Shown one piece after another: positions 13,921 through 51,905 of a stretch of DNA of 52,148 bases; position 1 is the first letter of the stretch; each line of letters begins with the position of its first letter. A program made the translations under genes and the position numbers. The stretch comes from a virus, in the IMG/VR virus record IMGVR_UViG_3300037137_001787, positions 1 through 52,148 of that record; one strand, 5' to 3'. Under the pieces are notes generated by a model. It was not told the DNA's origin and did not search any database. It saw only the letters and a program-made list of their open reading frames with translations.

Positions 13921-15274
13921 GTGGGGTCAAGGGGTTAGAGAAAACCCCGCGCCTTTAGGCCGGGGATGAATCGTACCCCTTGGAATTGTAATACCTGTCC
14001 CAAAATAGCAATTGTCGAGAAAGCACGAAAGGACAGGCAAAGGATAATAAAGTATTAAAACAATATAAAGATGTCGAGTAAAACATGAAAAAAACATTCC
14101 AATTCAGGATATACCCAAACAAGAATCAAGAAGTAGCCCTGAACAGAACACTTTCTACATGCAGACGACTCTATAATGATTCTCTTGCTGAACGAAAACG
14201 GCAAGCTGAACTTAACGAACTTGAAAGGACATTCGATGTAACTCCGTGGGGTAAACCCGAATGGTTAAACTACTACGATCAAGCCAATAGTCTATCGGGT
14301 TCAAAGACCGTCTTCCAGAAAGACGTATTCTCTCAGGTCTTACAAAACGTCTTGAAAAGAGTCGAAAGAAGCTTTAAGAATTTTTTTAATGGCTTTGGCT
14401 ACCCCCGTTTTCAGGGAAGAGAAAGGTATAATAGTTTTACCTTTCCGCAATCTGGCTTCAAAATCGAAGATGGAAAACTCAATCTCTCGAAAATAGGAAA
14501 CATTAAGATAGTCCTGCATCGTGAAATTGAAGGCATAATCAAAACCTGTACCATCAAAAAGGATATTGATCAATGGTATGTTTCCTTCTCATGCGAAATC
14601 GACATACCCATAATTCCTGTTGAGGTCAAGACCGAAACAGGCATAGACGTTGGATTGAAATCCCTGATAACCATGAGCAACGGTTGCCAGATTGAGCCTC
14701 CCGAATTTCTAAGAGTATCAGAAAAGAAGCTAACCCGCGAACAGAAGCGACTAAGTCGGAAAAAGAAAAGATCACAAAACAGGAACACCCAGAGAATCGT
14801 AGTAGCAAAAGTACATCGAAGGATCAGGAATCAGAGAAAAGATTTTGCTCATAAGATAAGCAGGAAACTTGTTACTGAATATGATCATATTGTGTTTGAG
14901 GATTTGCAGATACAAAACATGGTTAAGAACTATCGTCTTGCTAAATCCATATCAGATGCAGGATGGTCACAGTTAATCAATTTCACAAAAACCAAAGCAG
15001 AATACGCTGGGAAGATAGTTGAATTGGTTAATCCAAGAAATACAAGTCAGAATTGTAGCAGTTGTGGTAATTCAGTCAAAAAAGACCTATCTATGAGGAT
15101 ACACAGTTGTCCCTTTTGTGGTCTTGTTCTGGATAGAGATCATAATGCTGCAATTAATATCTTAGGACGATCAAATAGTACGGTAGGAATTACCGGAATT
15201 AACGCCCGTCAAGGACTTTCAATAGAGAGCCGATGCAGCGGGACGCCCCCAGCCTTTAGGCGGGGGTAATTCAC
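13921..15274 (+). mobile_element. TnpB-only IS200/IS605-family element (copy 1)
   Basis: The left end carries GGGGTCAAGGGGTTAGAG followed by a hairpin (CCCCGCGCC with GGCCGGGG). The right end is a hairpin around GCCTTTAGGC followed by TAATTCAC, ending at 15274. The left end matches that of the 50.5-51.9 kb element, including AGAGAAAACCCCG and GGGGATGAATCGTACCCC. There is no tnpA, so it would need one in trans; the Y1 transposase at 26.4 kb is a candidate. The outer left border is approximate. Confidence 0.75.
14085..15269 (+). CDS. tnpB: TnpB RNA-guided nuclease (copy 1)
   Basis: This 394-aa protein has the TnpB/OrfB layout: an N-terminal helical-barrel region (QFRIYPNKNQ) and a split RuvC. 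The catalytic residues are Asp in GIDVGLKS (about 190), Glu in IVFEDLQI (about 270) and Asp in LDRDHNAAINI (about 350). The zinc knuckle is intact (CSSCG, then CPFCG). All three RuvC acids are present, so it may be an active omega-RNA-guided nuclease. It is clearly related to the 50.6 kb copy. The last codons lie inside the right-end hairpin, as usual when the guide RNA overlaps the 3' end. Confidence 0.93.
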   Translation: MKKTFQFRIYPNKNQEVALNRTLSTCRRLYNDSLAERKRQAELNELERTFDVTPWGKPEWLNYYDQANSLSGSKTVFQKDVFSQVLQNVLKRVERSFKNFFNGFGYPRFQGRERYNSFTFPQSGFKIEDGKLNLSKIGNIKIVLHREIEGIIKTCTIKKDIDQWYVSFSCEIDIPIIPVEVKTETGIDVGLKSLITMSNGCQIEPPEFLRVSEKKLTREQKRLSRKKKRSQNRNTQRIVVAKVHRRIRNQRKDFAHKISRKLVTEYDHIVFEDLQIQNMVKNYRLAKSISDAGWSQLINFTKTKAEYAGKIVELVNPRNTSQNCSSCGNSVKKDLSMRIHSCPFCGLVLDRDHNAAINILGRSNSTVGITGINARQGLSIESRCSGTPPAFRRG

Positions 15275-15575: not shown

Positions 15576-15611
15576 GTGAATTACCCCCGCCTAAAGGCTG
15601 GGGTAATTCAC
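15576..15611. repeat. 36-bp palindromic element matching the right end of TnpB element 1
   Basis: GTGAATTA and TAATTCAC flank a GC stem around GCC-TTTA-GGC (minus-strand reading). The minus strand repeats the right end of the 13.9-15.3 kb element almost exactly. It is a non-autonomous palindrome (PATE type) or a leftover end. It provides the last codons and stop of the DpdA-like gene and cuts the coiled-coil gene behind it. Confidence 0.75.
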
Positions 15612-16229
15612 TCCCCATGCCTTCTTAATACCAATAATAGACTTCTTAATTAAGCACTTAGAATCTAAATCAGATGGTATCCATTTCATATCCCAATATT
15701 GTTTTGATAATCTTGCTATTTTAATATAACTATTACCATCAAGACTTTTTATATTCTTGAAATATGTTTTGTACCATAATTGTTTGCTTGGACTCCCCCC
15801 TAATAAATGAATGTTATAATTACAAATGTCCCAAGTCGCCAATCCCTCTGTTCCTCCATAGCTTGTAGGAATTGAAAAACCAATCATAAATTTTCTTTCA
15901 ATTCTTTCAATTATATCTTTACATTTTGGTATTATTATTACATTCTGAGAATATTGTCTTAACTCCTCTGCCAAATCTAAAATAGTATCTAAATCCGATT
16001 CGTTGAATATATCAGGAGCACAAACATATTTTGGTTTGATAAGTTTGCACAGTTGTAGGTGTTTTTCGATATCCGGTTTTTTATATGCAAAATCAAGAAA
16101 TTGAAGATTGTATTTCGTTCTTAGAGAATTAGCAGCATGTGTATTCGCTCCACATAGTATTTTAGTTTCGACTGCAATATCTAAATATTTTGGTTTGTCG
16201 ATACACATAATTAAATCTATTTTGTGCAT
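15591..16229 (-). CDS. dpdA: DpdA-like 7-deazaguanine DNA transglycosylase
   Basis: This 212-aa protein resembles the TGT-fold DpdA proteins of viruses, which exchange guanine in DNA for preQ0. Visible hallmarks are YVCAPDIFNESDLDTIL (substrate and Asp region), VIIIPK, the conserved GFSIPTSYGGT loop, NIHLLGGSPSKQ, and SLDGNS near the end. It overlaps the QueF-like gene by 13 bases, so the two are co-translated. The final few residues and the TAG stop lie in the palindromic element, so the original C-terminus may have been slightly longer. preQ0 would come from the host, since no queC, queD, queE or folE gene is present. A tRNA-guanine transglycosylase role is the main alternative. Confidence 0.75.
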   Translation of the reverse strand: MHKIDLIMCIDKPKYLDIAVETKILCGANTHAANSLRTKYNLQFLDFAYKKPDIEKHLQLCKLIKPKYVCAPDIFNESDLDTILDLAEELRQYSQNVIIIPKCKDIIERIERKFMIGFSIPTSYGGTEGLATWDICNYNIHLLGGSPSKQLWYKTYFKNIKSLDGNSYIKIARLSKQYWDMKWIPSDLDSKCLIKKSIIGIKKAWGVNYPSL

Positions 16230-16630
16230 ATTATCTCTGTTAAAATCCCACCACGAACATTAACTTTTAAGCGAAGTTCACAACTATCAGGTTTTACTGC
16301 ATCACAAAAATCCTTCAATACTTTTTGTGCAAGATGTTCATGAAGAATGCCTATTTCTTTATAAACTGATAAATACATTTTCAAGCTTTTCAATTCCGGG
16401 ATATTTCTAAATGGGACATATTTAAGATGTAACTCATAAAAATCAAGTAACCCAGTCATAGGACATAATGCAACAAGTTCTGTTGTACTATAGATTATTT
16501 CCGTTTTTTCTATTTGTATATATTCGAGTATAGCTATACTATATATGTTCTTTTGCATTACTTCATTCTGTTGTTTATTAACGTCTTGCAACGGCATATC
16601 TTCAATATGTTTTACAGTTTCTTTATCCAT
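16217..16630 (-). CDS. queF: QueF-like 7-cyano-7-deazaguanine reductase
   Basis: This 137-aa T-fold protein has the QueF landmarks. LCPMTGLLDF carries the nucleophilic Cys and the Asp. ELKSLKMYL matches the NADPH motif E(S/L)KS-h-K-x-Y. GILHEHLAQKVLKDF supplies the substrate Glu/His. QueF reduces the nitrile of preQ0 to the aminomethyl of preQ1. The presence of the NADPH motif favours a reductase over the QueF-L amidinotransferase that makes archaeosine. With the DpdA-like neighbour it suggests that the virus places preQ1 in its DNA. Confidence 0.8.
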   Translation of the reverse strand: MDKETVKHIEDMPLQDVNKQQNEVMQKNIYSIAILEYIQIEKTEIIYSTTELVALCPMTGLLDFYELHLKYVPFRNIPELKSLKMYLSVYKEIGILHEHLAQKVLKDFCDAVKPDSCELRLKVNVRGGILTEIICTK

Positions 16631-25087: not shown

Positions 25088-25238
25088 AACATCTTAATAC
25101 ACATATAATATATATATAACTTTCGACTCTTAGAACGTGGTGTCAAGGGGTACGTTCATTCATACCCTAACCGCAATTTATTTATACCTTAAAGTACATA
25201 AGTATGATTGCCGACAAGGCAAATGGAGGAAATAAACT
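25088..25238. promoter_or_regulatory. Divergent promoter region between replication operon and early genes
   Basis: TATATATATATTATATG on the minus strand (near 25100-25120) would be the TATA box for the AbrB-primase operon. TTTATTTATACC (near 25178-25190) and the ribosome site GGAGGA (25223) serve the plus-strand gene at 25239. A GTGTCAAGGGGTACG stretch near 25140 resembles part of a TnpB element left end. Confidence 0.5.
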
Positions 25239-25903: not shown

Positions 25904-26254
25904 ATGAGTGAAATAATAAATATTGCAAAACCAACAAAAGAAGCAATTAGAGAAATAGCAGAACAAGAAAAGATAACAAGAAGAGGGTTGATAGATGCAT
26001 TCATAAATATCGATACGGGCGAGTGCGCCGGGATTTTCTGGAGAAATGATGGATATTCTTGGTATGAAAATGAGCCAGAAAATACCTATATGGTCTCAAT
26101 TCCAGCAAGAACAGAACTTGATGAGACAGGGGAAGATTGGGAAGAAGAACTGAAAGACAACATAGACAGAGCGATAGATAGACTCATAGAGAAAATAGAG
26201 AAGCAGCGCTGCTCAAGAAGGAGAAAGTGGTCAGCGCCAAGCTCAGTGGGGTGA
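25904..26254 (+). CDS. Unknown acidic protein just before the IS605 element
   Basis: This 116-aa protein starts after AGAGAGGTAAAAACT. It has FWRNDGYSWYENEPENTYM and a long acidic helix (ELDETGEDWEEELKDNIDRA), then a basic end. The last residues may have been altered by the neighbouring insertion, which starts about 20 bases later. Function unknown. Confidence 0.6.
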   Translation: MSEIINIAKPTKEAIREIAEQEKITRRGLIDAFINIDTGECAGIFWRNDGYSWYENEPENTYMVSIPARTELDETGEDWEEELKDNIDRAIDRLIEKIEKQRCSRRRKWSAPSSVG

Positions 26255-26352
26255 TTTAGGATCGTATCAGGCTAATCCCCGCGACTTCAGTCGTGGGATA
26301 CAGCCGTAACTCACCGAAACAATTATTACTTATGATAACCATCTACTATTAA

Positions 26353-26793
26353 ATGAGCAAACAAGAACACTGGATAAGCGGCAGAGGTTGTGTTTACAAC
26401 ATCAACTATCATATGGTATGGAGTACCAAATACCGTAAAAAGGTGTTGATAGGTGATATTGTGGATTACTTGAAACAATTACACGAACAGATTGCAGGTG
26501 AAAAAGGTATAATATTGAGAGAACAAGAGGTAATGCCTGACCATGTTCATCTGTTCATAACAGCTCATCCTAAATATTCGCCATCTCAGATCGTAAAAAT
26601 CTTTAAAGGAATTACAGCAAAAGAACTATTTGAAAAATTCCCTATACTGAGAACCAGAATGTATAATAGGGGACATCTCTGGAACCCAAGCTATTATTGC
26701 GGTACTATGGGCGATGTGACAAAGGATATAGTTCTAAAATATATTGAAATGCAGAAGGTCAAAGATAAAAATGATATTCCAGAAATCTCTTAA
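26353..26793 (+). CDS. tnpA: IS200/IS605 Y1 transposase TnpA
   Basis: This 146-aa protein has the single-strand transposase signature: HMVWSTKYRKKVL, the HUH motif as DHVHLFI (about residue 74), and the catalytic Tyr in DIVLKYIEMQK near the C-terminus (about 132). It cuts and joins the element ends at hairpins as single-stranded DNA. It is the only Y1 transposase in the genome and could serve the TnpB-only elements and hairpins in trans. Confidence 0.95.
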   Translation: MSKQEHWISGRGCVYNINYHMVWSTKYRKKVLIGDIVDYLKQLHEQIAGEKGIILREQEVMPDHVHLFITAHPKYSPSQIVKIFKGITAKELFEKFPILRTRMYNRGHLWNPSYYCGTMGDVTKDIVLKYIEMQKVKDKNDIPEIS

Positions 26794-28051
26794 AATCCCT
26801 ATTCATTACGATACAACAAACACCAAAATAGGTATACTGGATAGGCTAACAGCAAGAATAACATATTGTATTATGCTTATTTCAGGACTCATTACTGATG
26901 AAACAGAGATAGATAGAAAAACAATACGAAAAATAGTCAAAGATAACGATATCGCATCAAAAACGGGTTTGTCAGCAGGTTTCATAGATCAGTGTATAGA
27001 TAAGGTCGTCTGGTCATGGAAATCGTATAAGAAACTTCATAATGATTGGGAAAAGAAGGTCAATCGAGCAGAGGAAAGAATAACATCATCAAGAGATGAT
27101 AAAGAAAAAGAGAAAAGAGAGAAATCATTTGACAAACTACTCAAAAGAGAACCATCAATACCTGCGTTTGAAGAAAAGACTCCATGCAGGATAGATTACA
27201 GAACAGGAAACATGCAGTGGGGAAAGGGTAAATTTTCACCATTGTGGATCCGTATATCCACACTGGAGAAAAACAAAAGAATAGATATTCCTTTAAATCC
27301 ATCTCAGTATCATCTGAACCAGCTTCAGAATGCTGAAATAGATGATTTTGAGATCATAAAGCTAAACAATAAATATTACGTTCATATTTCTATCACGAAA
27401 GTGGTAGAGGATAAACCAATAAGATCCATCGGAGGTATAGATCAGGGTCTGAACAGATCCATAGCAGTCGTACTGCTGGAAACACCTGTACCTCGTGAAG
27501 AGCTTTTATTGGATGCAGTAAAGAGAGATCTTCTGGATAAGTACGATAATATAATATCATCGTTACAGGAATCCGGGAAATGGGATAAACTCAGAGAACT
27601 CAGGAACAAAAGAAGTAACGTATCAACATACCATGACTGGTGTCTTGCAAACGAAGTAGCTGACTTCACCGAAGGTTCTCTGATAGCTATAGGTAACACT
27701 CCATTCAGACAGACCCAGTTCAGAGGTAATGGCATGCCCACACTACGAAAACGAATCGGTAAGTGGAGTTATGGTAGACAGAGGATGTTCATAGCTCTGA
27801 AGAGAGCTGAACGTGGTTATTCCACAAAACTAAGAGAAGAAAGGAACACGTCACGAGAATGTCATTGCTGTGGCTCGTTGCTCACCACACGAAAATGGTC
27901 AGATGGCAGTTCATATATCCTCTGTCATTCCTGCGGAGTGAAAGAGGATGCTGATATCAATGCTGCATACAATATAGCTTTTCGATGCCAGGATGACTGG
28001 CTGAAAGTGCAGATGAACATGATAGGAGAAAAACCTCATGCGAGTGCATAA
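26771..28051 (+). CDS. tnpB: TnpB of the IS605 element, RuvC-II Glu not at the usual place
   Basis: The start is taken at the ATG at 26771 inside the end of tnpA; 26744 is an alternative. The protein has RuvC-I Asp in GGIDQGLNRSI. The segment that should carry the Glu reads SLIAIGNTPFR, with Gly where Glu is usual. RuvC-III Asp is in EDADINAAYNI. The zinc knuckle is CHCCG and CHSCG. It belongs to a different TnpB branch from the other copies. A rearranged active site or loss of nuclease activity is possible. Confidence 0.85.
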   Translation: MIFQKSLKIPIHYDTTNTKIGILDRLTARITYCIMLISGLITDETEIDRKTIRKIVKDNDIASKTGLSAGFIDQCIDKVVWSWKSYKKLHNDWEKKVNRAEERITSSRDDKEKEKREKSFDKLLKREPSIPAFEEKTPCRIDYRTGNMQWGKGKFSPLWIRISTLEKNKRIDIPLNPSQYHLNQLQNAEIDDFEIIKLNNKYYVHISITKVVEDKPIRSIGGIDQGLNRSIAVVLLETPVPREELLLDAVKRDLLDKYDNIISSLQESGKWDKLRELRNKRSNVSTYHDWCLANEVADFTEGSLIAIGNTPFRQTQFRGNGMPTLRKRIGKWSYGRQRMFIALKRAERGYSTKLREERNTSRECHCCGSLLTTRKWSDGSSYILCHSCGVKEDADINAAYNIAFRCQDDWLKVQMNMIGEKPHASA

Positions 28052-28089
28052 GAATGGATGCTCGCCTTTTCAAAGGCGAGAGAAGTCAC

Positions 28090-28700
28090 AAAAACAGTAT
28101 CAGACAGATTGGGGAGAAACTATGAGCAGTTCACTTCTGCAAGAGACCGAACAGAACAACATGGTCTCTCAGATTATTTTCTCCAATCTATTCTATAGAG
28201 AGACCCAGGCGGGAAACAACATCCTATCCACCTTCGAAACACCTGTTGTTTCCGTCTGTACTATTCGGGATGATGTTCAGAGCCACCCGTATATCAATGG
28301 TAAAGATATATCGAATGCTCAGGAACCAAAGACGGATTCGCGATCCGTTCATCCCCTTCCGGCACGCATCGGATCACCCTCATGTCTGCCGGATACAACG
28401 GGCGCAGGACAAATCTTTTACACCACTAACCCCCACTCCTGCGCCCACTATAATTATCAAAACATCGGTTCTGGTTCAGCTATCGCGGGTTCAGTCTCGC
28501 TCCACCACAACCAAACAACCACACCTCCGAACAAAACAGAAGGAAGAAAGGTACGACATCCGACAAGGCGAGAAAGTCAGGAAAGATTCCCGGCAGGGAC
28601 TCAACTACACAAATTAGCTTACGGTTGTGTAGCCTTTCCATACCCCGTATCCTTGTCGGAAGGCGACTTGCCGGGGCGGACCTCCCCGGCATTCTACTGA
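28090..28700 (+). ncRNA. Candidate large ornate structured RNA (about 600 nt)
   Basis: This 600-base stretch lacks a convincing gene but is full of perfect helices in order. These are 28106-28119 with 28178-28189 (12 bp, 2-base bulge), enclosing 28142-28148/28163-28169 (7 bp). Then 28212-28221/28244-28253 (10 bp), 28290-28295/28305-28310 (6), 28332-28337/28343-28348 (6) and 28358-28364/28387-28393 (7). Then 28400-28409/28437-28446 (10), 28560-28568/28651-28659 (9) enclosing 28605-28612/28625-28632 (8), and 28670-28676/28684-28690 (7). Unpaired parts are A-rich and CA-rich on the plus strand. The style recalls GOLLD and ROOL phage RNAs, though no match is claimed. Confidence 0.65.
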
Positions 28701-28701
28701 C

Positions 28702-28716
28702 GCGGGGGTAATTCAC
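28702..28716 (+). repeat. Right-end relic of a TnpB-type element
   Basis: GCGGGGGTAATTCAC is identical to the right end of the TnpB element at 13.9-15.3 kb, but no matching left half of the hairpin is present. It lies directly after the structured RNA region and before the next gene. It may be a deletion relic, or mark that the RNA region once travelled with an element. Confidence 0.55.
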
Positions 28717-28730
28717 AGGAGATTCATTAA

Positions 28731-28928
28731 ATGCCGTCAGGACAACCAACATTCGATAAAATAAACGATTTGCTTGTTTCTGATTCGTGCTTTGAGATTT
28801 TGAAGGATTTGGGGCGCGCAGTTGAAAATTACAATACTAAATTTGGACGAGAGATGTTGCATAATGCTATTAAAAAAATTCAGGCATTAAAAAAAGCACA
28901 TGATCTTACGCCAGGAACCAAGCGATAA
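28731..28928 (+). CDS. 65-aa helical protein
   Basis: The start follows CAGGAGATTCATTAA. The product is helical (CFEILKDLGRAVENYNTKFG) with a basic C-terminus (IQALKKAHD). No family is recognised. It heads the group leading to the RDF-like gene. Confidence 0.6.
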   Translation: MPSGQPTFDKINDLLVSDSCFEILKDLGRAVENYNTKFGREMLHNAIKKIQALKKAHDLTPGTKR

Positions 28929-29197: not shown

Positions 29198-29557
29198 ATG
29201 AACAACCAAGAACTTGTACAAAAACTTGAATCATTGCCTGAAAGCATCCGGACCAAAAGTCTTGAGTTGCTTGCAATCCAAGAACAGATCGATACATTCC
29301 AGAACGATGTATATACCTTAAAAACAACGGCAATGGAAAAGGTACTGACTGACGGACTTGCTACGAACGATAAAGCAAGAGTTACAGCGCAAACCAGCCT
29401 TCTATCAAAAGATCAGCTTTACATCGATGCGGAAAAGTCGCTTCGGGAACAACAAAAGAAACTCAGACAGGAACAGGCGCAACTGGAGTATCTCCACGGT
29501 ATATTCAGTGCATACAAAGCGATTGCAAACATGATGTCAAATCCGGCGGTGTACTAA
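29198..29557 (+). CDS. Coiled-coil protein upstream of the RDF-like gene
   Basis: This 119-aa protein has a long C-terminal coiled coil (KSLREQQKKLRQEQAQLEYL). It starts 6 bases after the previous gene. Its position in a recombination/replication group suggests an accessory there. No family is recognised. Confidence 0.6.
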   Translation: MNNQELVQKLESLPESIRTKSLELLAIQEQIDTFQNDVYTLKTTAMEKVLTDGLATNDKARVTAQTSLLSKDQLYIDAEKSLREQQKKLRQEQAQLEYLHGIFSAYKAIANMMSNPAVY

Positions 29558-29560
29558 AAT

Positions 29561-29959
29561 ATGTGCAAAGGACTTGCAGTTATAACGGAAAAAATCAAAG
29601 ACGAATGGAAAGTGTACGCAAAACAGGGCGAATCATCACATGACAAAATACTTCATGAACAACGGGACGATTTACGATTTGGAAAAGCACCCCATCTCAA
29701 ATTTGAAGTATTATTTCCTGTCAGAGTTCAAGATAATATTCAACAGGATTGCGAATATCCAACTGGATGGATAGAACTTCAGTGGGGTAAGAAAGTTGCA
29801 TGTAAGGACGCATTCTTCGCAGTTTTCAAGCATTTGCGTGATAATCCTGAGTTGCTTGAGTTCATGCCAAGTATGTTTCAAGAGGCTGACCTGAGTGGGG
29901 CTGATACAAAAGGAACGATCTTTCCTGAAAAGTTCAAAAGCCCAGAGGTGAAATCATGA
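29561..29959 (+). CDS. Unknown 132-aa early protein
   Basis: It begins MCKGLAVITEKIKDEWKVYA and contains EYPTGWIELQWGKKVACKDA. It overlaps the next gene by 4 bases. Proteins with a similar N-terminus occur as unnamed phage proteins; I cannot name a function. Confidence 0.6.
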   Translation: MCKGLAVITEKIKDEWKVYAKQGESSHDKILHEQRDDLRFGKAPHLKFEVLFPVRVQDNIQQDCEYPTGWIELQWGKKVACKDAFFAVFKHLRDNPELLEFMPSMFQEADLSGADTKGTIFPEKFKSPEVKS

Positions 29960-31476
29960 ATGTAGACCAACAGTCCGTGATCAAATCCTTGCTCATCAAG
30001 CGAGGATATAAAGAATCCGGCATTACAAAGGGTTGGTTTTTCACAGAGGATGGTAGCGACAGGGCTGCCGACTTGCGGAAAGCCAAGCCGATCATCGGTA
30101 TTCTGATATCGGGCAACATAGTCACTGAAGGGCATGGAAATCTCAAAATTCTGGACGATATCCAGGAAGTTGAAGCGATCATGCGTGCTGGGCACATCAG
30201 CGGAAACGAGGGCGTTCTAAAGTCTGACACTCCTGACACTCCTGACACTTCAAAGAAAGGCACTACCACAGCGATATGCGAAAGGTGTAAGCTCCAATTC
30301 AATGTTACAAATGTAGATCAGGCGCAAAAAATCATAGAACAGTATGGTAAGTTATTCTGTCTGAAATGCCAGAGTTCCCCTCCTACAATGGATAGCAAGA
30401 TTGAACTGCCGAAAAACAACGCAAAGCCCGATTCAAGAATTGTAACCAAGAACTGTAAATCGTGCGGTCTGGAATTGTCAGGCGCCAGGGCGTTATACTG
30501 CTACCAGAAAGAGAAACCGTTCACATGCGAGGATTGTTATGAAAAAGAATATAAGGAAACGGAAAAGGGAAAAGATGCGACGATTGAGAAACGTGAAGCC
30601 AGACCCGAAGAATCAAAGATAATTCGCCAGCCGGACGCAAGGATACCAATACAAACACACACTCAACAGGGCGGCAGTATTATCAAAGGATTCCAACCAT
30701 CCCTAAAAGAGATTGGCAAAATCAAAATAGGCAGCAAGGGTGAAGAAAAACCAAAAGCAGGAGGCGGCACATTCCGATTGCCCGTAAAATTCGATCACTT
30801 TGAGATCGTATCCCTTGTACGAAATGAGAAAGGAGATTTCATCAAAGATCCGGTAATGCAGTTGCTTGGCGAGAACCCGAAAGAACTTGATATAATGTTG
30901 CTGTTCAACGAACCGACACTGAACTTCATTACCCGATACAATCAATATCAGGGCGGAAAATGTCTTTGTCAGGGCGATGGAGCAACGGCAAAACAAATAG
31001 ATGGCGCACAGGTAGAATGCAACCCAGATACCTGCCCACAGTTCGCTCAAAAGAAATGCAAGCCAAATGGTATCCTGTCAGTAATCCTCACGAAATCCCC
31101 CCGGCTTGGCGGCGTGTACAAATTCAGGACAACATCGTTCAATAGTATTAGATCAATACTATCCTCGCTATTCTTCCTCAGCAACCTTACAGGCGGCGTT
31201 CTGGCGATGATCCCATTGAAATTGACAGTATCCCCTATGCAGGTTCAACCGAAGGATTCTGCGAAGCCACAGACAATCTTCGTGGTAAATATTGAGTTCT
31301 CAGGAACCGCACCTGAATTGCTACAAAAGACGTTTGAAGTACATACCTATCAGAAAGATATGAGGGAACATATTATCAAGCTCGAAAGCACAGCACGTGC
31401 AGCACTGACCGCGCCAGAGAGCAAGGAAGAAATCAATGAGATAGAAGCTGAGTTCTATCCGAAGCAGGAGAAATGA
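29956..31476 (+). CDS. Zinc-finger protein with recombination-directionality-factor-like domain
   Basis: This 506-aa protein has two Cys4-type zinc sites (CERCKLQF with CLKC, and CKSCGLEL with CEDC) in residues 100-200. A Lys-rich linker (200-270) leads to a C-terminal domain (270-475) like phage RDF / gp3-type proteins. The visible series is KFDHFEIVSLVRNEKGDF, GGKCLCQGDGATAKQ, CNPDTCPQFAQKKC, YKFRTTSFNSIRSI and VLAMIPLKLTV. A DNA triplet of CTCCTGACA encodes TPDTPDT in the linker. No integrase gene lies in the genome, so the domain may have another job, for example in replication or repair. Confidence 0.72.
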   Translation: MNVDQQSVIKSLLIKRGYKESGITKGWFFTEDGSDRAADLRKAKPIIGILISGNIVTEGHGNLKILDDIQEVEAIMRAGHISGNEGVLKSDTPDTPDTSKKGTTTAICERCKLQFNVTNVDQAQKIIEQYGKLFCLKCQSSPPTMDSKIELPKNNAKPDSRIVTKNCKSCGLELSGARALYCYQKEKPFTCEDCYEKEYKETEKGKDATIEKREARPEESKIIRQPDARIPIQTHTQQGGSIIKGFQPSLKEIGKIKIGSKGEEKPKAGGGTFRLPVKFDHFEIVSLVRNEKGDFIKDPVMQLLGENPKELDIMLLFNEPTLNFITRYNQYQGGKCLCQGDGATAKQIDGAQVECNPDTCPQFAQKKCKPNGILSVILTKSPRLGGVYKFRTTSFNSIRSILSSLFFLSNLTGGVLAMIPLKLTVSPMQVQPKDSAKPQTIFVVNIEFSGTAPELLQKTFEVHTYQKDMREHIIKLESTARAALTAPESKEEINEIEAEFYPKQEK

Positions 31477-35558: not shown

Positions 35559-35597
35559 ACGGGACGGGTAACGACTCTGCGGAGTCGCTTGGCGCAT
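35534..35597 (+). repeat. Composite hairpin element, copy A
   Basis: CCCCGTACT-CA-AGTACGGGG (35534-35553) is followed by CAT and then a 34-bp segment at 35564-35597 (starting ACGGGTAACGACTC). That segment holds the hairpin CGACTC-TGCG-GAGTCG and ends TTGGCGCAT. The same 34 bases recur exactly at 36402-36435. It is the spacer between two small genes. Confidence 0.8.
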
Positions 35598-35623
35598 AAA
35601 CAACAATAATAAAGAGGTTGAAA

Positions 35624-35782
35624 ATGGTATCAGATGAGGAAGCTGCTGATATGGTTATATCTAACCTGAAATCTAAAGGGTTTGCAGTCAAAGACAGGAA
35701 TCTGATAATTGCAGATATTCATGCAATCAGAGAACGAAAAATAAAAGGGACAAAAGATGTAACGGATAAATGGAGAATGTGA
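35624..35782 (+). CDS. 52-aa protein in the cassette region
   Basis: It starts after AAAGAGGTTGAAA, the same leader used by the genes at 35858 and 36466. The product is helical then basic (SDEEAADMVISNLKSKGFAV). No family is recognised. Confidence 0.58.
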   Translation: MVSDEEAADMVISNLKSKGFAVKDRNLIIADIHAIRERKIKGTKDVTDKWRM

Positions 35783-36356: not shown

Positions 36357-36435
36357 CCCCGCACTCCGCTGCGGCTAAAGTGCGAGGCATCTACGGACGA
36401 AACGGGTAACGACTCTGCGGAGTCGCTTGGCGCAT
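36357..36435 (+). repeat. Composite hairpin element, copy B
   Basis: CCCCGCACT and AGTGCGAGG pair around an inner GC hairpin (36357-36387), followed by CATC. The 34-bp segment at 36402-36435 is identical to that at 35564-35597. The left flank TGAAGCTGCTCCCCCGAAG resembles TGAAGTTGCTCCCCGAAA upstream of the 38.35 kb hairpin. Confidence 0.75.
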
Positions 36436-36465
36436 GAAACAAGCATATAGAAAAGAGGTTAAAAT

Positions 36466-38716: not shown

Positions 38717-38814
38717 CCACCTGCAAGCAACCGCAACACAACAGTTATCATCATCATCACAATTATGATTAAAGGTATCCAGTATTTGTCCATGAAACTT
38801 GATTGTGTTGTCAT
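38713..38814 (-). CDS. 33-aa single-pass membrane protein (holin-like)
   Basis: It begins MTTQSSFMDKYWI and has one transmembrane helix (PLIIIVMMMITVVLRLLAGG). It overlaps both neighbours by 4 bases. Directly downstream of a candidate peptidase, it could be a holin or a membrane anchor for a lysis enzyme. Confidence 0.6.
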   Translation of the reverse strand: MTTQSSFMDKYWIPLIIIVMMMITVVLRLLAGG

Positions 38815-39251
38815 ATTATCATTATCCAGACATTCTCATGAGATGGAATAAAGATATCATCCGTTTGCGGTTCGACATACCACAGCGTTTTATTTTCATC
38901 AATGAAGAAGTTCCATGCATGTGGCGCATCATCGCTGGCACGATTGCCCCAGACTATACCGAATGCCCCATCTGAATTCCATGTGGAAACATCACCCATG
39001 AGTTCAAAGCTATAATCATCACAATCATGAGCATCTACATAATAGGCACGCTTGTTTACTGGATTGACTTTCAGGAACTCTTCAAGTGATCTCTTGTTGA
39101 TTGTGGAATATTTTGCATCACTCAACCAGAGGTTACTGCAATATGGCTTCAGAATCTGTCCCAGGTCAACCCCAGAGAGACTTTGAGGGTATGGGATAGG
39201 TACAGGTGTCGGCTTTCTAAAAAAGTCCCATATCCAATCTAAAAGGCTCAT
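38811..39251 (-). CDS. Papain/NlpC-like cysteine peptidase candidate
   Basis: This 146-aa protein shows the triad layout of viral transglutaminase/NlpC-like proteins. A Cys sits in DAHDCDDYSFEL (about residue 76), a His in DDAPHAWNFFID (about 112) and an acidic/Gln site in YVEPQTDDIF (about 126). It precedes a one-TM protein in an overlapping cassette at the end of the structural operon, a common place for lysis genes. Cell-envelope cleavage is inferred. The alternative is a tail-associated structural peptidase. Confidence 0.62.
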   Translation of the reverse strand: MSLLDWIWDFFRKPTPVPIPYPQSLSGVDLGQILKPYCSNLWLSDAKYSTINKRSLEEFLKVNPVNKRAYYVDAHDCDDYSFELMGDVSTWNSDGAFGIVWGNRASDDAPHAWNFFIDENKTLWYVEPQTDDIFIPSHENVWIMII

Positions 39252-50506: not shown

Positions 50507-51905
50507 GTGACATCCTCCCCCCCCCTGAAGGGACGGGGCTTCCTGTTTCGTTGATCGGGCTTGCTATGTTCGACATAGTATCGGCTCGATCTCCACAGGC
50601 GTAAATTCGGTACTGTCCGTACCTACATTCTTGCATTTGCCTCTATTTTCTATTAGTATTGCTGAAACGTGATCCCTGTTGAGTACAAGACCACAGGAAG
50701 GACATGAGTGTATCCTTACTGACAGGTCTTTAGGTACAGGATATCCACAAACACATGTCTGTGACGTTCCATTAGGATTGACCTGAATGACTGATTTCCC
50801 AGCTTCTTCCGCTTTGGATATCGTCATCCTGATCAACTGACCCCAACCAGCATCCGAGATACTCTTAGCAAGACAATGATTCTTGACCATGTTATTGATA
50901 TGTAATTTCTCGAATACGATCCGGTCAAAATTATTAACAAGCATTCTGCTTGTCTTATGAGCAAAATCTTTTCTCTGGTTCCTGATTTTCCTGTGCACTC
51001 TGGCTACCTTGATCCTCTGTTTATTTCTGTTCTTTGATCTGAGTTTCTTTTTTGATAGTTGTCTCTGTTCATGGATGAGTTTCTCTTCTGACAATCTCAG
51101 GAACTTCGGGGGTTCTATCTGGTCTCCATTACTCAAGGTCAAAAGAGATTTCAAACCAACATCGATGCCTATTATGGTTTCTACAGGAATCTTCTTGATC
51201 TCTCGATCTATTTCGGTTGTGAATATCACATACCACTGATCCACATCCTTCTTGATGGTACATGTCTTGATCTTCCCTTCAATTTCCCTGTGTAAGAATA
51301 TCCTGATGTTACCTATCTTCGACAGGTTGAGCTTTCCATCCTCGATTCCAAACCCTTTTTGTGGATACGTAAACGTATTATATCTATTTCTTCCTTTGAA
51401 ACGGGGATAGCCATTTCCTCCAAAGAAATTCAGAAAACTTCTATCCAGTCTCTTCAGGACGTTCTGCAGAACTTGTGAGAATACTTCTTTCTGAAAAGGG
51501 GTTTTCGATCCGGGAAGATCGTTTGCCTGATCTTCATATTTTATCCATTCCGGTTTTCCCCATGGAATTATTCCAAAATCCCGTTCGAGATTGTTTAGTT
51601 CTGCTTCTCTTCTTCGTTCTTCCAGAGCATCATTGTAAAGATGACGACATGTGGAAAGTGTTCTGTTCAGTTTAACTTCCTGATTCTTGTTCGGGTATAT
51701 CCTGAACTGGTATGCTTTCTTCATGTTATCAGTCTCCGTAATATCTATATTGTTTCGATGCATTATATAGTTTATGCCCGTCCCGTAATCAGTCTTCGCA
51801 AACTGTTTTTCCGGGACGGGTATTATTATTTTCATGGTTTTCTATCGCCGTTATGAGTGGGGGTACGATTCATCCCCGCCCTGAAGGAACGGGGTTTTCT
51901 CTACC
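50507..51905 (-). mobile_element. TnpB-only IS200/IS605-family element (copy 2)
   Basis: Read on the minus strand, the left end has GGGGTTGAGGGGTAGAG, AAAACCCCG and a GC hairpin near 51870-51895, matching the left end of the 13.9 kb element. The right end reads GGGGAGGATGTCAC and finishes near 50507. No tnpA. The insertion lies between the LamG gene and the secreted fibre gene and supplies the LamG stop codon. Confidence 0.78.
50564..51724 (-). CDS. tnpB: TnpB RNA-guided nuclease (copy 2) with a shortened zinc knuckle
   Basis: The start at 51724 (MKKAYQFRIYPNKNQ) aligns with the 14.1 kb copy; a longer frame to 51835 has no counterpart there. Catalytic residues are present: Asp in GIDVGLKS, Glu in IVFEKLHI and Asp in LNRDHVSAIL. 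The first zinc pair reads CVC instead of C-x-x-C (QTCVCGYPV), so the knuckle may not bind zinc normally. The C-terminus diverges from the other copy after the last RuvC motif. Confidence 0.88.
   Translation of the reverse strand: MKKAYQFRIYPNKNQEVKLNRTLSTCRHLYNDALEERRREAELNNLERDFGIIPWGKPEWIKYEDQANDLPGSKTPFQKEVFSQVLQNVLKRLDRSFLNFFGGNGYPRFKGRNRYNTFTYPQKGFGIEDGKLNLSKIGNIRIFLHREIEGKIKTCTIKKDVDQWYVIFTTEIDREIKKIPVETIIGIDVGLKSLLTLSNGDQIEPPKFLRLSEEKLIHEQRQLSKKKLRSKNRNKQRIKVARVHRKIRNQRKDFAHKTSRMLVNNFDRIVFEKLHINNMVKNHCLAKSISDAGWGQLIRMTISKAEEAGKSVIQVNPNGTSQTCVCGYPVPKDLSVRIHSCPSCGLVLNRDHVSAILIENRGKCKNVGTDSTEFTPVEIEPILCRT

Follow-up and report, generated by a model that had tools for sequence, protein, structure and literature searches.

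The window analysed here, the whole 52,148-nt stretch of IMG/VR record IMGVR_UViG_3300037137_001787, is a circular or complete virus record that begins and ends with the same 127 bp. It carries genes for an HK97-type capsid protein, a portal protein, a terminase and a primase-helicase, and is the genome of a circular head-tailed virus of Methanoperedens-like archaea. In its middle part an IS605-type element (26261-28089, + strand; tnpA at 26353-26793 and tnpB at 26744-28051, with Y1_Tnp and Cas12f1-like TNB matches) is followed by a 627-nt region, further called D (28090-28716, + strand), and by + strand genes starting at 28731 with one of 65 aa. Further downstream, a gene pair at 29198-31476 (+) encodes a protein of 119 aa and one of 506 aa with a Gp3-like domain (PF18897), and served as a synteny anchor. 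A promoter adjacent to D was not detected; the closest strong TATA boxes lie at 25109 and 25179.

Both borders of D carry traces of mobile elements. The ends of the IS605-type element were set by three relatives from Methanoperedens and a related Methanosarcinales genome (L005, L006 and L007), whose alignment stops at the hairpin 28060-28089, ending in ...GTCAC, with unrelated sequence beyond; the left limit (~26260, just after TTTAG) is approximate. The element reported earlier to end just upstream of D thus does so at position 28089, and before it inserted, D directly followed the gene at 25904-26254. At the other border, the TnpB-type right end that had likewise been noticed was found again as a solitary sequence GCGGGGGTAATTCAC (28702-28716, +), identical to 15260-15274; over 28702-28718 the identity to the right end of the element at 14085-15274 is 17/17, and a search for a left end belonging to it gave no match. 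Both the insertion sequence and the right end are neighbours of D and not parts of it. The limits of D are accordingly the right end of the insertion sequence and, on the 3' side, the right-end-like sequence and the next gene.

A number of other features of the window deserve mention. Three TnpB genes of two types are present in this one 52-kb archaeal virus (14085-15269, 26744-28051 and 50564-51835), and a palindromic pair of solitary TnpB right ends GTGAATTACCCCCGCCTAAAGGCTGGGGTAATTCAC lies at 15576-15611, near the TnpB element 14085-15274. A fragment at L007:4001-4112 retains only the last 23 TnpB codons and the right end of the IS605-type element described above; it may be a copy that is truncated or non-autonomous. 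Next to these, we observed a gene for a QueF-like protein (16217-16630, minus strand), with a possible link to 7-deazaguanine modification of viral DNA or tRNA, a gene matching the Agglutinin C-terminal / ricin-type lectin domain (38811-39251, minus strand), and a direct repeat of ~62 bp, 91% identical, at 35564-35625 and 36402-36465 with a small gene in between.

D very probably is a virus-encoded structured noncoding RNA on the + strand, composed of eight helical domains. Compared with dinucleotide shuffles, the folding energy of 28060-28716 has a z-score of -6.8 on the + strand and -4.5 on the - strand, and D alone reaches -5.8 (60 shuffles). When the genome was scanned in 694 windows of 200 nt on both strands, the + strand windows 28351-28550 and 28201-28400 ranked first and ninth. 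Moreover, D contains 6 perfect Watson-Crick stems of at least 8 bp, compared to a shuffled mean of 0.55 and reached in none of 200 shuffles, and 3 of at least 10 bp, compared to 0.035 in shuffles. The pair probabilities lie at 0.86-1.00 for nearly all of the predicted helices. Together with the counterpart described below, which is likewise structured but has diverged and belongs to a related provirus, these data support the earlier proposal that this archaeal virus encodes a large structured RNA on its + strand. The structure of the whole molecule is a prediction from D alone, the provirus counterpart aligning nowhere outside domain P5.

From 5' to 3' on the + strand, the first predicted domain, P1 (28106-28189), is a 13-bp stem around two small hairpins (28126-28140 and 28143-28168) with pair probabilities of 0.89-1.00, and P2 (28212-28253) is a perfect 10-bp stem closing a C-rich loop of 22 nt. 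P3 (28267-28355) is predicted to form a branched domain closed by the pairing GGGATG/CATCCC, with inner hairpins at 28289-28311 and 28331-28349, and P4 (28358-28393) a stem TCCGGCA/TGCCGGA extended by GCAT/ATGT. It is followed by P5 (28400-28449), the hairpin of host small-RNA type with the loop CAAAUCUUUUACACCACUAACCCCCAC, and by P6 (28467-28520), a predicted hairpin with inner stem GCGGG/CTCGC. In P7 (28559-28660) the predicted long-range stem TCCGACAAGG/CCTTGTCGGA surrounds 28580-28639 and has the hairpin CTACACAA/TTGTGTAG inside, and P8 (28669-28691) is a predicted 8-bp G+C hairpin close to the 3' end. The two perfect 10-bp stems singled out in the earlier note recur in the predicted pairing, in P2 (28212-28221/28244-28253) and P5 (28400-28409/28437-28446); the long-range pairing also exists, but with a length of 10 bp (28559-28568/28651-28660) instead of 9.

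When D was compared with 34 Methanoperedenaceae genomes by BLAST, the sole matching segment was 28404-28439, within P5, which was found in 8 genomes at E <= 0.01; matches of the other segments stayed at chance level and nearly all fell within coding genes. A DNA search for the whole of D in phages and plasmids gave no match. The host matches are separate hairpins of ~57 nt, GATGGGCAGG-ACATCTTTTTTAACACACTAACCCCCACTCCCCAA-CCTGCCCATC and variants thereof, with a near-invariant loop CACUAACCCCCACUCC. With at most one mismatch, the 16-nt loop core is present in 33 of the 34 Methanoperedenaceae genomes, compared to one occurrence of a reversed control pattern. From 15 host copies, with the virus left out, a covariance model was built, designated R1.

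R1 detects a small-RNA family that had no entry in Rfam and is newly brought out here: nearly universal in the Methanosarcinales (172 of 186 genomes), including the methane-oxidising Methanoperedens, and usually present in several copies per host genome. In a phylum-wide sample it was found in 17 of 120 genomes, 11 of which were already in the order-level search. Its stem is well conserved as a structure: 8 of the 10 stem pairs have changed on both sides, 98% of cells pair among 45 distinct sequences, and double-change cells number 44, compared to 8.9 +/- 2.3 after shuffling. A TATA box stands at ~-30 upstream of the host copies (T 88%). In the Methanosarcina members the loop contains two CCCCCCACUCCCC motifs, and the family possibly includes the M. 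mazei small RNA sRNA41, which according to a review masks ribosome binding sites (PMC5867862). Examples are the tandem copies L018:1496-1551 and L018:1626-1682, with a tRNA gene ~100 nt upstream, and members in L092 and L096.

P5 is almost certainly homologous to this host small RNA. R1 matches 28400-28449 with 36.8 bits (E 1.5e-5 over 102 kb), and a loop as host-like as that of P5 was obtained in none of 2000 shuffles; this likeness was not significant for the loops of P2 and P4 (2000 shuffles), and the D hairpin loops other than P5 do not resemble the host loop. What P5 shares with the family is the 10-bp stem, the U-run and the loop core CACUAACCCCCACU. The sequence of the viral stem, GGGCGCAGGA/TCCTGCGCCC, is unlike that of the host stems, yet its pairing is perfect over 10 bp. 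P5 further differs from the host copies in that it lacks the CCCCAA loop end, is embedded in a 627-nt RNA and has no TATA box at -30 before 28400 (best score -5.2, compared to a host median of 18.0). Neither is it a stand-alone gene of ~60 nt, with strongly predicted helices on both flanks; without a promoter of its own, it is to be regarded as a domain inside a larger RNA. P5 thus originates from, or is a copy of, a host small RNA that occurs in multiple copies and has a U-run and a conserved loop rich in C. The structure proposed in the earlier note holds; what the note missed is the main point, namely that one of the hairpins has a homologue in a host small RNA of wide occurrence. As a check of specificity, IMG/VR was scanned for the loop core and matching stretches were fetched; among these contigs the hairpin was also present in one only, the 55-kb contig L059. 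There it is a stand-alone copy of host type (L059:2052-2112) that has a TATA box of its own and adjoins an integrase-like gene. This copy may belong to a virus or an integrative element, or may serve as an attachment site.

A second RNA at the corresponding place was found in a provirus of Ca. Methanoperedens nitroreducens (G004), of which the capsid and portal genes are collinear with those of the window virus and which has a tyrosine integrase. The Gp3-like protein (29956-31476) has a relative there with 73% identity (L307:12679-14187) and the 119-aa protein one with 30% (L307:14187-14768); in viral contigs the Gp3-like and primase proteins had no relatives, and terminase relatives were found on fragments only, which do not hold the RNA. 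At the same place and on the same strand relative to the two genes as D, the provirus has a noncoding stretch of ~600 nt (L307:16526-15925, - strand), with a z-score of -6.6, which is the best-folding window of its strand. It forms three hairpins of 9-13 bp with loops of 25-34 nt, where 0.17 are expected. One of its hairpins, TTGCGAAAGCTGG...CCGGCTTTCGCAA with the loop CTTTTTTCAAGATCGACTAACCCCTAATCCCCAC, has a host-type loop, as host-like in none of 2000 shuffles, and is the sole R1 match in 135 kb covering three provirus regions (21.8 bits, E 0.035; E 2.4e-4 within a 901-nt stretch). The provirus loops M2-M4 showed no significant match to the host loop, and loop M3 and the P5 loop of D are alike (10 of 2000 shuffles). 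Outside the host-type hairpin, no sequence similarity between D and the provirus RNA was detectable. In all likelihood the provirus RNA is the counterpart of D: with the same locus and a host-type hairpin in both, and no other similarity, the two viruses appear to have kept a structured RNA while the rest diverged beyond recognition.

The GOLLD and ROOL RNAs form multimeric cages, and to our knowledge no function is known for the large structured phage RNAs. D resembles them as a large ornate noncoding RNA of a tailed virus without a known function. Phages and prophages carry both of them, and their genes frequently lie close to tRNA islands (PMC12286853). D, in contrast, comes from an archaeal virus, carries a host small-RNA hairpin, and lies in a window in which ARAGORN detected no tRNA genes. 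The kinship with GOLLD or ROOL considered previously is not supported, as D matches no Rfam family at the gathering score, and raising the limit to E 5 yielded only one riboswitch match at chance level. On the host side, R1 can be compared with LhrC of Listeria, a multicopy bacterial small RNA with UCCC loops (PMC4132741), with which it shares the several near-identical copies per genome and the C-rich unpaired motifs. Masking of the Shine-Dalgarno sequence has been proposed for LhrC-type small RNAs, and C-rich loops are typical of small RNAs that mask ribosome binding sites (PMC4132741). R1 differs from LhrC in being archaeal and unrelated in sequence. Its loop matched host translation-start regions no better than did shuffled loops of equal composition, so that no enrichment beyond C-richness was seen. 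The loops were also not significant as mimics of the 16S rRNA 3' tail (127 of 1000 shuffles), and no complement of the viral loop was found elsewhere in the virus with up to 3 mismatches.

We lean towards a role of D in trans, as an imitator of or competitor with the host small RNA. D would be transcribed within an early + strand operon, for which the TATA boxes at 25109 and 25179 are the best upstream candidates, and would show the host-type loop, carried by a strong stem, as part of a larger RNA that presumably persists longer. During infection the viral loop would then be offered to the partner of the host small RNA, either imitating the latter or competing with it. This partner could be the ribosome binding sites of mRNAs, by analogy with small RNAs with C-rich loops, or a protein; as pairing with ribosome binding sites is not supported computationally, a protein is equally open. 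A tentative extension, on which we would not rely, is that the modular string of hairpins upstream of the Gp3-like gene in Methanosarcinales viruses represents a new class of archaeal-virus RNA that mimics host small RNAs, some members having T-arm-like units. Such a class would, if real, amount to a viral takeover or block of a small-RNA circuit common to an archaeal order, and imitation of R1 by the viral RNA would mean that archaeal viruses manipulate host small-RNA regulation, of which we found no report in the part of the literature that was covered. In any case, a recognisable cellular relative of one part of a large viral RNA provides a direct handle on its function.

The main rival is a purely cis-acting role, in which D is a leader or intercistronic element for the genes from 28731 and its hairpin binds the partner of the host RNA for the benefit of its own mRNA only. 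This fits the position of D, which lies between + strand genes, lacks its own promoter and stops 15 nt short of the 65-aa gene; the provirus RNA also directly precedes a gene. We nevertheless consider it rather unlikely, as D is larger and has more domains than a leader requires and the first downstream gene differs, being a 65-aa gene here and a cytosine methylase gene in the provirus. It is improbable that D is a captured host small-RNA locus, either decaying or serving as an integration (att) site. The stand-alone copy beside an integrase-like gene in L059 would agree with this, but the viral stem differs from the host stems and yet pairs perfectly over 10 bp, the tested ORFs of the window include no integrase, and in the provirus the hairpin is internal, ~2 kb away from the integrase and not at a boundary of the element.

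Nor is D likely to be translated. An open frame at 28122-28700 (192 aa), preceded by GGGGAG as a plausible ribosome-binding site, forms part of an open run of 202 codons, as long as which only 2 of 2000 shuffles contained; under this reading the structure would be incidental. The codon log-odds of this frame (-0.12 per codon) are below those of all 30 viral genes tested, however, its fraction of purines at codon position 1 is 0.54 compared to 0.57 in the lowest gene, and Pfam and PHROG gave no match. Moreover, the frame crosses a hairpin with noncoding homologues, and the syntenic place in the provirus shows no protein similarity although the flanking genes align. A single-sequence AlphaFold prediction of the open frame scored low but says nothing either way, a control gene scoring almost as low. 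D is thus probably not a gene, and we hold this alternative to be very improbable. Least probable of all is that D, lying between the IS605 end and the TnpB-type right end as a TnpB omega RNA might, serves the upstream IS605/TnpB element, or a TnpB element with its end at 28716, as guide RNA or cargo, given that the three IS relatives have unrelated sequence after the terminal hairpin, which places D outside the element, that the downstream right end has no matching left end and that no insertion sequence adjoins the provirus RNA.

Returning to the locus shared by D and the provirus RNA, the corresponding gaps in two further genomes also fold well, with z-scores of -3.6 (G122) and -3.5 (G130), and a tie of these gaps to the RNA family is no more than suggestive. 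At the G122 locus (C89:64343-64184) an 11-bp hairpin has a loop that contains CAATAACCCC; this loop is not significantly similar to that of the Methanoperedens hosts (348 of 2000 shuffles), and the R1 score is only 5.9 bits. As a separate observation, motifs resembling the T-arm of tRNA occur in the provirus RNA (GGTTCGATTCC and GGTGCGAGTCC), and a third one, GGTGCGATTCC, is present at the corresponding gap in G130 (C32:14275-14108).
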